Shown piece after piece: positions 17,779-58,400 of a stretch of 64,000 nt of DNA. The translations under genes and the position numbers were made by a program. The notes under the pieces are model-generated. The model had not been told where the DNA came from. It was given only the letters and a program-made list of their open reading frames with translations, and ran no database searches. The stretch covers positions 310,001 through 374,000 of the forward strand of contig CAJHZI010000650.1 in assembly GCA_905160935.1 (NCBI GenBank). The letters are read 5' to 3'. Numbering within the stretch: position 1 is the first letter of the stretch; each line of letters opens with the position of its first letter. This stretch comes from Enchytraeus crypticus. Its lineage: Eukaryota > Annelida > Clitellata > Enchytraeida > Enchytraeidae.

Positions 17779-20700
17779 GTTACGATTTATCCATGCAGCT
17801 TACGCCATATTTGTCAACACCTGATGAGAAACTATGATTTGTTAATTGTGTAACATTTTGAAGGACGCAAATTGCCTATTTATGTTACTATATGGCTAGT
17901 TTAATAAATGCCAAATGGCATATACGAGTGAATTTTACTGTCGTGTAAATGTTCGTGATAATACAGCTTATTATGACAAATGTTTATTGATCTTAATATT
18001 TGAGAGAAAAAACTTATTTAGGCCTATAGCTCATATCCGATATTGTGCAGTAGCGATAAACTAGATTGAACATTTTATCTCTAGTTTTGAAAGATTCCAT
18101 ACTACTATAGATATCCGATTTTCTGTGCAATCAATAACACTACCTAGTTGCATATTATTTGCCTGGCTATTGAAAACTTAAAAGAAAGAAATTTTGATTT
18201 TGATTTAATTTTTCTATTAAAATTAATAATATATTTTATTATTAATTATTCGTAGGGCCTCAATGTCCTAGTATGTGTACTTGAAGAGACTATAAAGCTG
18301 CATCTTTCAATTGAATTTCTTATTTTGAGTTTTGAAGCTTCGAGTATAAATCAAGCAAAGCTGAGGGCAGTGACAAGAAAAATAGCTAAATCAAATTTTT
18401 CTAAGCTTCTATTTTAAAAAGCGTGCCTCGCTTTCACTACTTCTAATTAAATCGTGTAGAAAGTGATACTTTGAATTTCTATATTCGGTGATAAAGCATC
18501 TCAATTGAAGGAGTGCTCAATTAGTCAGCATTGACAAATTGATTAGGTATATTCAAACTAATTATTGCTTTTATGTTTCTATTTAAGGATCGGAAGATGT
18601 ATTGAAGATGTATTGAATTCATCTTTGAATTTCTATATTCGGTGATAAAGCATCTCAATTGAAGGAGTGCTCAATTAGTCAGCATTGACAAATTAATTAG
18701 GTATATTCAAACTAATTATTGCTTTTATGTTTCCATTTAAGGATCGGAAGAAGATGTATTGAATTCATCCGGGCATGCTATAGGATCCGGCGACAGTAAC
18801 TTAAAAGTAATTTCTTGCTGATTTAATTGCTAATTTATCAATGACTCCCCTATAAACTTTGATCTGTATCATATAGTATTGTCTAACATCCTCAAATTTT
18901 TAAACTTTTCATACATGTCTGAGTTTAAATGCATGTTGTTAAACACCTGCAAGAAATTTTGTATATTTATTAAATTTTATCATCATCATCTTCCCTTAAA
19001 TCTCAGCTTAACCAGCTTCGGGACACAAATAGACTTTCTTTAGTTCTCTGTCCCATATCATATCATCAGTCAATCCCCAATTTTTCATGTTCTTAATTGC
19101 TGCATCTCACGTCAATTGTGGACTACCTCTCTCTAGCTTAACATCCAGCTCTTCCCTTCAAACTCTCTTTACTACATCCTCATCTTCCTTTCTCACAATA
19201 TGTCCATATCATCTCAATCTCGACTGAGCCAACCTATGCCCGAGCCCCTCAACATTCAAATTCATCCTCACATATTCATTTTCCATTCTGTCCTTCCTAG
19301 TTTTTCCACACATTAGACGTAACATTCTCATATCTGCCACATGCAAACTCTGTAAATGTTCCCTTTTAAAGTTTATTCATTCGTTTAAGTTTTTGTAGCA
19401 ATGTCTGGAGCCTAGGCGTTCACCAACCGAATACCCTTTCTGACGTTGGTTTGGATCTAGTTTTTATGTCGCCTTCTACGACACGTGCGTCAAATTATTT
19501 ACATGGTTGGTCAATTCTTCTAGCAACCTGGGCACAACACGGGGAATATGTCCTATAAATATTTTAAAATAAAAAAATTAAAGAATAAAATAATATTAAT
19601 ATATTATAATATACCCTCTATTTATTAAATTTTATGCAGTAAAATAATGCGTATGAAAAACATTGTACTTGTCCTCACATTATTTTTTGAATTCTGCTGT
19701 TAATATTTTTCATTGCTGTATTTTATTCGCGTATGTTAATATTTTTTATTCACTTGGCTTTTCTGATATTTTCATGAATTTATGTAGGCTTACACTCTAA
19801 TTCTAATTCAAACAGCGGCTGACACTGTGTTTACACATTTCGGATGATTAGGTTGATTTCTTTCTGGCTCTTTGCAATTTTATATTAATTTGAACAATTA
19901 TCTTAAAGTATGTACATATATCTCTCGTGGCTTAATTTAACTTTTTATTTTGTTAATTTGTAATCTCTTCTTTTGTTTAATGCAGTTTTCTCTACTATTA
20001 GAATTATATGATAATAATTTCTGTAAGATTTACATTAAATGCACAATGTGTACTGTGTTGGTTGGATCCCATAGAGTACAAAGGGGCTTTTACAGTACAT
20101 TATTTTAGGCCTTTTCTAAAAATATAGTATACTTTAAATGCCACTAATTTAATATTTAAAGCATCATTTACAGCAAATTGCTTTCAAATTAATTAAGTGC
20201 CTCCTTTTTGCTGGCTGTTGTTATCATTGTGAAGTTTCACCAGTACCTTACACTGTGTGTAGATTAAGAGTAAAGATAGGAAATAATCAAGTTTTTAACA
20301 GGATCTTAATTGAGAATCACTGCTTTTTGTAATAATGCATTTTTGTGTATGCATTTGCTAGGATTAATTTTTAGATAATAAGAGACTTAATGATCTTACT
20401 TTTAAGTTCTTGTAATTAAATTTTATTTGAATTATATGATTGTGGTGAATAAAATGGGATTGATTGGATAGGCCACATTCTAAGGGTATATAGTTTACTA
20501 AAGGAGGTCATAGAAGTTAGAATGGAAGGAAAGAGTAGCAGAAGCAGACCGAGATTAGGAATGCTAGATGATTTAAAGATCCACTCGTGTGTGAACATGA
20601 CGAGGAAAACTGAAGACGGAGAAGAGTGGAGGTGTTATATACCACGGACCTGCCAGTAGGCAGTGCACTAAGAGAGAGAAAGATGAATACAAAACATAGA

Positions 20701-55400: not shown

Positions 55401-58400
55401 GTCACCTCAATGTATATGTAGTGTTTGGAATTCTCAATCAAATCAATGTAGGCATTCAGTATCGATCTCTCCACATATTTAATCCCGGCCGACCACTCAC
55501 AACAGCTCCGTAGTATCTGTTAAACATATCGGAGTTCCTATTGGTCAAATCTTGTAGTGAAATAAATTATGCACGTTGGTCTTTGCAATACTGCATCTGC
55601 ACTAAATATATATTTACCTGCATATTTATATATAAATACATATATATATATATATATATATACATATATATATATATATATATATATATATATATACATA
55701 TATATATATATATATATATATATATATATATATATATATATATATATATTGCATGTGCATATTTATGCAGTTGCATAGTTATACATTTACCTGTACATTT
55801 ATCTGCACATGTATATTTCTGTTAGTGAATGAATGCATAAGTATTTCACCATATTTTCTTTGAAAGCGTCAAAGAATCATATTAGCGTACAGGTTAAGAG
55901 AGTTGACTGAATGAAATTATTACGAAACAACTTTGAACGTTTGATGGAAAATCATTTAATTAAAAATATTTTAATTACTGATTTAAGTATATTAAATCTG
56001 CATCTAAATTTTTATTTTCAATTGCTTATGTTTACCTGCACAATTGCATTTGTAGATCATTTGTATGTTGCTACCTGACTGGTGAAATAAAGCTCCATAT
56101 AGTATACATATTTCTACTGAACCTCCTTATCGAACGACACTGCAGTGCATGCTTTCACTAATTGGAGCCAGTAGTGCTGTCGGTAAGATATCAGTATATA
56201 GAAATTTATATCTATACAATCATATCACATTTTACCTGACAGTTACAACAGAAAGTTGATTTGGCTGCCCATCGCGGTACGGACACATTAGCGTTGCTCT
56301 TGGGCAACAACATCGGTATATCATCTGCCGTCTTTCTCTTCTGAAGCTACAAGTATCACACATTAATAACGTTTTAACGAAAGCGCATTCGCTTGGACCG
56401 ATGGGCTAACAGCTAGCGTGTATACCTCTTTGTCTTTAATCCCTTTATCTTTACCTTTATGGAGTGATTTTCTGGATTTCGGAATTTGCATCCTTTTCGG
56501 ACCACCTTTTGCTCGCTGGCTAGGATTTATGTCAATAGTGCTCAATATTGTCATTGATAACTGTTGCACTTTAATTGTTATTATTACATGGCCTCGCAAT
56601 TAAACATGTTATTATGACAGTCCGTGATGTTTTCATAAAATAATCCACAGACATTTAATTTGCCCTCCGAGATTATGAGAGATTATGTGCTAATGTTGAT
56701 GACTTCCAAAATACCTATTGAGGTTAACGCTACCACGTACCTATGTTTAGTATCATACGTTCGTATCTGACTGTCACACATGGTCCAATACAAATCTGTG
56801 TTTCTCTGCTATCAGGTAAATTCAGTCAGACTATGGGTACCAATTTGGAACTCCAGAAATAAAATCAACCCTATTTACTATTTTACCTATATATTTATCT
56901 ATTCCGCGGATTATTAAAATTTAGCTCATAACAGCATCAACCACAGAATAGTGAATAGTAAAATGAATCAAAAAATTCTATTCATATTTAAGGCAATGGC
57001 AGTACAAAAAATTTAATTAATACACTATTTTCAGACGTACAGATAGCTTTACAAAACCTTATTTTGTAATCTAGCAACAACTCTAAATTAATCACAATTT
57101 TATAGATATTAACAATTCATCATAACCACCAAATAGAAACGTTATACCGGATATATTTTTAAAATGTCAATATAAATGAGAAAATCACTAAATCAGTATT
57201 TTCCATAAATCGGTCATATTTTCAACAATCTCATAAAAACCTTGAATATACTCTGGAAGAAGTTAAAAAACACTTTATATTAAATATATTAAACACATAA
57301 TACAAAAGCTCTTTCAAAATCCCAACCAACGGTCATTCGGTTGTTGAGCGCCTAGAAAAATGGCTACAAAATTTTCTAATCCTGACCTTAGTTAAACTGG
57401 GATTCAAGGTAAGAAGATGATGACTATCTAAAAACTTCAGCGTACTAGGTCAATCAAAGGCTAGTAAATGGAGAGTATCGTTATAGAGAAAGTTATCACG
57501 TTATACACAATACCTTTGTGAAATTCCATCTCTGAATGAAATGCCGTGCAACGTCGCGAGCCGGCTTACCAAACACTGCGGCACCGATATCATGCCACGG
57601 CATACGAGGAGTAACAGTTCTATCTACCATGTCTGCAAATTACAACAATACTAATTAAACAAATCAATTCATCCTTAAGTCGTAGTTCTATCAAATCTAT
57701 CAATAGTAATCGATCTGTTGTATCTATCAAATACAACAATAGTAATTAAACAAATCAATTCATCCTGAAGTTACAGTTCTATCTACCGTGTCTGCAACAT
57801 ACAACAGTAGTAAACAAACCAATCCATCACAAAGTTACAGTTACTTTTACGTACGTAATTTAGTAATTATATACAACAAATTTATTTCAATTCCCTCAAT
57901 AAGAACACACTCAATTTATATTATTTGCCTGAAAAAACCTAGATAATTTCTGCTTGATTTCAGAAATTTGACATCAGAGCAGAAAATTGATAATTGTCCA
58001 CACAAAACCCGTATTTACCTCGTTACGAGGTGACAACCTGCATATAGCAAGAATGACATGCGTAAATTACTATGCTCCTAAGTGATCAAACCATGATTTT
58101 GATTTGGTCGACTCTATATTCATTAAGAAGAAAAATAAATGAGAATTCAATCTATTTTTTGCTGTGCACCAATCTGCACTAAACATATCCTGTAATAAAA
58201 ATTATCTTCTTTTCCTTGTACACCAAAATGAAAGTTCAAAGGCTAAATTAACATCATTTTCATAACTCAACAGCACATCAGAGACGGGCGGGCCCGGTTC
58301 TGATTGAAATTTTTATCGACTGAGTCAAGGTTGTTAACCAACGGGTCACACAATTGGTTCAAGCAGACGTCAAAGAATCTATTATATAACAATCATTCAA

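Follow-up and report, generated by a model that had tools for sequence, protein, structure and literature searches.

Tandem arrays across exon-intron junctions in genes of the annelid Enchytraeus crypticus as candidate mirages

The 64,000-nucleotide stretch of the Enchytraeus crypticus genome analysed here (the window; C555:310001-374000 under our working contig label) carries two neighbouring genes, one ORP8-like and the other PLD1-like, in which seven splice junctions lie within tandem repeats, as the first-pass annotation of this DNA had proposed. Spliced alignment and self-comparison both bear this out, the repeat units holding 3-28 exon bp together with the splice site, and junction-crossing arrays occur on seven further contigs of the same assembly. 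We interpret these arrays, with a probability of about 0.65, as mirages, that is, as tolerated tandem duplications at exon-intron borders. What is new here is the annelid host, the proportion of sampled junctions found in arrays (~9-10%), and an acceptor bias that is seen in the gene sample but not in the two genes of the window.

Arrays over seven splice junctions of the window

The genes and arrays concerned are the following, the exon edges at 18742, 28444, 33414/33415, 37857/37858, 49408, 51975 and 57632 having been placed by spliced alignment:

17655..40807, + strand: ORP8-like (OSBPL8-like) gene, modelled with ~19 exons, the first of them uncertain; spliced alignment, Pfam and PDB sequences
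49187..64000, - strand: 3' part of the PLD1-like gene, extending into the flank as far as ~83.1 kb; linker exons at 60.2-62.0 kb uncertain
18469..18769, + strand: array over acceptor 18742; 154-bp unit, 1.8 copies, 28 exon bp
28174..28463, + strand: array over acceptor 28444; 48-bp unit, 6.0 copies, 20 exon bp
33396..33868, + strand: array over GC donor 33414/33415; 39-bp unit, 12.1 identical copies, 19 exon bp
37855..37916, + strand: array over donor 37857/37858; 32-bp unit, 1.9 copies, 3 exon bp
49394..49770, - strand: array over acceptor 49408; 38-bp unit, 9.7 copies, 15 exon bp
51235..51980, - strand: array over donor 51975; 18-bp unit, 41.1 copies, 6 exon bp
57610..57842, - strand: divergent repeat over acceptor 57632; lags of 64, 91 and 159, 23 exon bp, self-comparison only

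All seven exon edges lie within repeats according to the self-comparison scan, and the six arrays with a copy number above are also listed by Tandem Repeats Finder (TRF); at 57632, where the copies are divergent, there is no TRF row at a score of at least 40. The least certain edge is 18742, the exon of which sits in a poorly conserved linker. The crossed junctions amount to four acceptors and three donors, and the arrangement is the same throughout: the copy that joins the exon sits at the edge of the array and the added copies lie in the intron, each array being located at one end of its intron and terminating inside it. The earlier estimate was 2 to about 41 copies of a real splice site; the array at 51975 holds 33 near-equal donors and not 41, counting those that score no further than 3 bits from the functional one. 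The motif AG|GT is indeed present in the three units at 37858, 49408 and 51975, but it is absent from four junctions (18742, 28444, 33415 and 57632) and not from two, as had been stated. The intron at 33415 is of the GC-AG type (CAG|GCATGT). Its donor recurs 12 times, in the frame of the exon, giving 11 extra units of 13 codons that are free of stops. In the array at 28444 the boundary copy ends in ttttag and the remaining copies in gacgtag; such a divergence of the boundary copy from the others is found in two arrays, this one and that of UBA1 at 8777, as judged by eye only. In the mirages of amphioxus, discussed below, the boundary copy is described as escaping homogenisation.

These results refer to one assembly from a single individual (524 Mb in 802 contigs). 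Exon edges were obtained using our own spliced-alignment script, with human proteins as guides, and the gene models are supported by Pfam (Oxysterol_BP, 8.5e-79; PH; PLDc) and by matches to PDB sequences (1.6e-155 for PLD1 and 4.1e-175 for ORP8). Arrays were defined by a diagonal self-comparison scan and the TRF list (score >=40), simple repeats of 1-6 bp being masked; a 21-bp direct repeat at 36644/36764, which is not tandem, was excluded from the window array list. The window genes have 58 well-supported junctions, fewer than the roughly 68 first reckoned, and this count leaves aside, as uncertain, the ORP8 first exon (17655), the linker exons of PLD and the acceptor belonging to exon 23780-23881. 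It includes the PLD acceptor at 62039, which was left out of splice-site scoring, and acceptor 18742, which is missing from the combined tally of 160 acceptors and 162 donors given below, as the model used there starts at that point. One further position differs between models:

63604, - strand: PLD acceptor by the later model, entered as 63605 in the count of 58

Frequency and position of junction arrays

Since the window was chosen for the feature itself, genes elsewhere in the assembly were used as an independent test. The sample consists of CLTC, UBA1, a UBA1-like copy, TCP1, XPO1 and POLR2B, which were chosen by name, with repeats disregarded, and found by protein search, the identity of the resulting models to their guides ranging from 531/980 to 1419/1671. 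Arrays enclose 22 of the 249 junctions in this sample, corresponding to 18/124 acceptors and 4/125 donors (P 0.004), and the pattern extends in this way beyond the two genes in which it was noticed. A false exon of POLR2B (position 8459 in the stretch from C612, where the model ends in low-complexity sequence) has been removed from these counts and from the combined tally; it is still counted in the figure of 23/250 and in the random-placement, coverage, splice-score, shuffle and TG figures. In the flank of PLD1 outside the window 3 of 18 junctions are crossed, and in the PLEKHF-like gene at the left edge of the window none of 12. Taking together the sample and the window genes with their flank, 22 of 160 acceptors and 9 of 162 donors are crossed, which makes 31 arrays with unit lengths of 18-196 bp, a single one exceeding 160 bp. 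With the introns shuffled locally (six replicates), 0-2 crossings remained when the lowest cut-off was applied, and zero when it was raised; the unshuffled set has 32.

Arrays are common in this assembly, as they make up 8.5% of ten 10-kb pieces and 13.5% of the sampled introns. When compared by position, junctions show no excess over this background: in the window 7/58 junctions (12%) lie in arrays, compared with 11.0% for intron positions (P=0.46), and in the sample 9.2% of junctions (23/250) versus 13.5% of intron bases. This absence of a junction excess is what one would expect if arrays that happen to cross junctions are simply tolerated. None of the 70 sample arrays covers a whole exon.

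The distribution along introns is uneven. In the 115 sampled introns of at least 300 bp, array coverage is 23% in the last 100 bp, 12.6% in the middle and 8.8% in the first 100 bp (P 0.0005), and the difference between last and first 100 bp persists at every scan cut-off from 16 to 40 (P 0.0005-0.009). Coverage peaks at 27% at 40-80 bp upstream of acceptors and still amounts to 13% over the 20 bp with which the exon opens, compared with 3.3% over the opening 20 bp of the intron at donors. The introns of the window have no 3'-end bias in coverage (P 0.47, 9 informative introns). The 3' splice tracts of the modelled introns are rich in T and G, with little C. Within 40 bp of the intron's 3' end, TG is nearly twice as common as over introns (0.082); its frequency there is 0.185 for 19 array acceptors (score >=30) and 0.143 for 142 others (P 0.011). 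An attraction of arrays to weak splice sites was considered and rejected, as the window reveals no difference in strength and in the larger set array acceptors score higher (11.49 versus 8.29).

Some observations made on the sampled genes are given here in their own right. The two UBA1-like genes (C355:1540204-1553754 and C115:2059166-2077553) have a similar exon layout and are identical to the human guide at 592/979 and 531/980 positions, respectively. A second and more distant RPB2-like gene is located at C293:2588550-2592166, with 34-44% identity to POLR2B, long open frames and few or no introns. POLR2B itself is split between the end of C612 and the start of C86, and the C612 part stops in TACAG-rich low-complexity sequence directly after an array-bearing donor, which suggests that such arrays may break the assembly.

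Probably tolerated duplications and the alternatives

The anatomy of the arrays corresponds to that of the mirages of amphioxus, contrary to the initial statement that no such system had been described. These have been reported from Adh3 and the globin genes BflGb6 and BflGb9 (PMC3087553) and from troponin C and PGBD5 (PMC3902484) and, according to the sections of both papers that we cite, leave regular splicing undisturbed. As in amphioxus, the tandem units of the window hold an exon end, the splice site and the adjoining intron (7/7 arrays), either boundary can be duplicated, whether acceptor or donor, the splice cores are repeated, and the arrays belong to existing introns; unit sizes are also comparable (10-160 bp in amphioxus, 18-196 bp here). 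The differences are the annelid host, the share of junctions involved, roughly a tenth in a limited set of genes, and the acceptor bias of that set. Moreover, the amphioxus papers show or cite splicing followed by reverse-transcription PCR as well as copy-number or somatic instability, whereas the arrays described here are known from the sequence of one assembly. A full-text search of open-licence PMC papers found no report of mirages in annelids. The closest annelid case is that of the earthworm metallothionein genes, which have intronic minisatellites and, in one clone, fourth-exon duplications that are absent from transcripts (PMC12783039); minisatellites inside introns are thus shared, although units spanning splice junctions are not described in the part of that report consulted. 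In humans, internal tandem repeats at exon-intron boundaries have been found in segmental duplications by comparing recent paralogs (PMC2812944). These are likewise minisatellites over exon-intron boundaries, but the excerpted text links them to altered gene structure and splicing, and a change of structure is not seen here.

In the most probable course of events, an exon-intron border would first be included in a short tandem duplication, which would then expand. Growth would proceed by slippage or unequal exchange, with copies piling up in the intron, while the array edge would retain the exon with its original splice site and splicing would presumably continue at the exon-proximal copy. If that copy is used the mRNA is unchanged, and selection would spare the array. 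With arrays common in the genome and clustered at intron 3' ends in the sample, about one junction in ten might be caught in this manner; the simplest account of the acceptor bias would be TG-rich 3' splice tracts, which are perhaps prone to duplication, together with a weaker tolerance at donors. The arrays probably ride along harmlessly. The functional copy outscores the mean decoy in 17/23 acceptor arrays (P 0.018) and in 7/9 donor arrays (P 0.023; false case included). The unit length is a multiple of three in 9 of the 31 arrays, so that no reading-frame bias is observed, as expected if the copies stay out of the reading frame.

Several observations weigh against this reading. Random placement of the 18 window arrays, allowing an intrusion into exons of at most 28 bp, half a unit or one whole unit (1500 simulations per limit), predicts 1.09, 0.84 and 1.44 crossings, respectively, versus 7 observed, and under each limit 0/1500 simulations reached 7; with arrays ending within 30 bp of a junction included, 10 were observed versus 2.0-2.6 expected. 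In the sample 19 of 70 arrays cross a junction (18 without the false one), versus an expectation of 9.1 when 40 bp of exon may be overlapped (P 0), 6.2 for half a unit (P 0) and 11.1 for one unit (P 0.0125; 400 runs in each case). This excess means that pure tolerance, without any bias, does not suffice. The two comparisons disagree. The placement analysis takes account of the failure of arrays to extend through exons, which the positional one does not, and the early impression that the overlap exceeds chance, addressed here in the window and the sampled genes, holds by the former and fails by the latter. Furthermore, the window genes with their flank have no acceptor bias (4/36 acceptors versus 5/37 donors) and the acceptor excess of the combined set is weak (P 0.03), and the TG richness of array acceptors could be a result of the arrays and not their cause. 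Finally, the functional copy is the best of all copies in just 10/23 acceptor and 2/9 donor arrays, and the intact cores of the decoys, detailed below, could mean that they are used.

The excess of crossings over random placement, in both window and sample, would also be in line with a mutational process linked to splicing or transcription (through R-loops, nicks or repair events at 3' splice sites) that duplicates junctions, and acceptors above all. Such a process would agree with the coverage peak upstream of acceptors, which runs into the first exon bases, with the low coverage at donors, and with the contrast between last and first 100 bp at all cut-offs. However, by position the junctions do not rise above the intron background, the window genes lack the acceptor bias, and tolerance combined with TG-rich tracts could yield the same map; we consider this process unlikely, if still worth bearing in mind. 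With the same reserve, it may be imagined that a splice-linked process, active in this annelid and perhaps throughout the phylum, duplicates 3' splice sites time and again, leaving ~15% of acceptors in ordinary conserved genes with tandem decoys. Were this the case, the genome would amount to a natural experiment, at genome scale, on how the spliceosome chooses among near-identical sites.

A different possibility is that the copies are used, the arrays serving alternative splicing or backing up weak splice sites. The cores of the decoys are largely intact (AG in 62/65; GT or GC in 60/62), a count that leans to intact cores as the scan requires similarity over the junction, and the 33396 array offers its extra in-frame units. 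A human precedent is the minisatellite of IFI6 (G1P3), which provides several splice donors (Turri et al. 1995, as cited in PMC4526556); there too the repeat unit carries a splice donor, but in that citation the copies are reported as used donors, whereas the donors considered here are predicted. Against such a role, the unit lengths have no reading-frame bias, the use of a distal copy would result in a stop or frameshift at 6/7 window junctions, and the junctions that carry arrays are not weaker than others, as the scores above indicate. Altogether, we regard use of the copies as improbable.

The proposal in the first-pass annotation that the arrays lie on a route to intron creation, by tandem duplication of AGGT-containing segments, finds some footing in the splice signals carried by the units (AG|GT in 3/7) and in the RdRp gene of potato, in which an intron was gained by a tandem duplication crossing an intron-exon boundary (PMC4974935). 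The duplicated segments are alike in crossing such a boundary; in potato, as far as the cited portion of that study goes, a new intron arose, and none is seen here. In fact, the window arrays end inside introns, and a further indication comes from three introns with arrays over both ends, one each in CLTC and TCP1 and one in the PLD1 flank (window numbering continued):

81332-83012, - strand: PLD1 flank intron; donor array of 17.7 x 40 bp (81292-81678) and acceptor array of 4.1 x 95 bp (82331-83037)

The unit lengths at the two ends of these introns are 45/50, 65/83 and 40/95 bp, and such differences make it doubtful that a single duplicated unit gave rise to the intron. The notion that introns are being born here has very little to recommend it. 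Least probable of all is that the arrays are assembly artefacts. All 12 units of the 33396 array are perfect, so that its copy number may be wrong, but many arrays have unit-to-unit differences and the feature recurs on the seven further contigs.

If the arrays are indeed mirages, a feature previously reported from single amphioxus genes (PMC3087553, PMC3902484, in the passages cited) would appear, given its rate in this annelid, to be no oddity of cephalochordates, and it becomes countable. Should the rate hold genome-wide, many junctions would have 2 to ~40 near-identical competing splice sites, which would offer a test bed for the rules of splice-site choice, for the tolerance of duplications and for ideas on how introns and exons arise. 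A caution for annotation also follows, as short exon ends recur within introns.

Neighbouring features and the mitochondrial contig

The other features recorded in the window are a third gene and three arrays that stop short of a junction:

538-4128, - strand: PLEKHF (Phafin)-like gene at the left window edge; spliced alignment, with Pfam/PDB support as PH domain only
25791..25837, + strand: non-crossing array, 23-bp unit, stops 3 bp before acceptor 25840
39086..39259, + strand: non-crossing array, 25-bp unit, stops 28 bp before acceptor 39288
58817..59049, - strand: non-crossing array, 33-bp unit, stops ~5 bp before acceptor 58811

We have considered these three arrays as decayed mirages and rejected the idea, as the units near 25840, 58811 and 39288 match the adjoining exon starts no better than shuffles do. 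Two reading frames, at 14716-15117 and 36626-37048, resemble non-LTR (long terminal repeat) retrotransposons by eye, no search having been made, and one of them lies beside a long AT microsatellite.

The assembly also includes a mitochondrial contig, C802 (15205 bp), which carries on one strand the order cox1-cox2-cox3-nad6-cob-atp6-nad5-nad4L-nad4-rRNA-nad1-nad3-nad2. The calls were made with Pfam, nad6 being below the cut-off and nad2 placed via a shared family only, and the large-subunit rRNA was matched; atp8 and the small-subunit rRNA were not identified on this contig. According to the part of PMC2639372 relied upon, the annelid order is marked by nad6/cob after cox3, atp6 between cob and nad5, an interchange of nad5 and nad4L/nad4, and nad3 between nad1 and nad2, and C802 agrees with annelids at all four positions. 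An amphioxus origin of the assembly was rejected on this gene order and on a search for the GFP family, which gave no match; that search, like a negative one for arthropod cuticle proteins, drew no match in the control genomes either, so that both negatives are weak. Fragments of cox1 with stops are present in nuclear contigs (C361, C424, C796 and C373), and two of them match C802 at 80-82%, which would constitute a weak link between C802 and the nuclear assembly.

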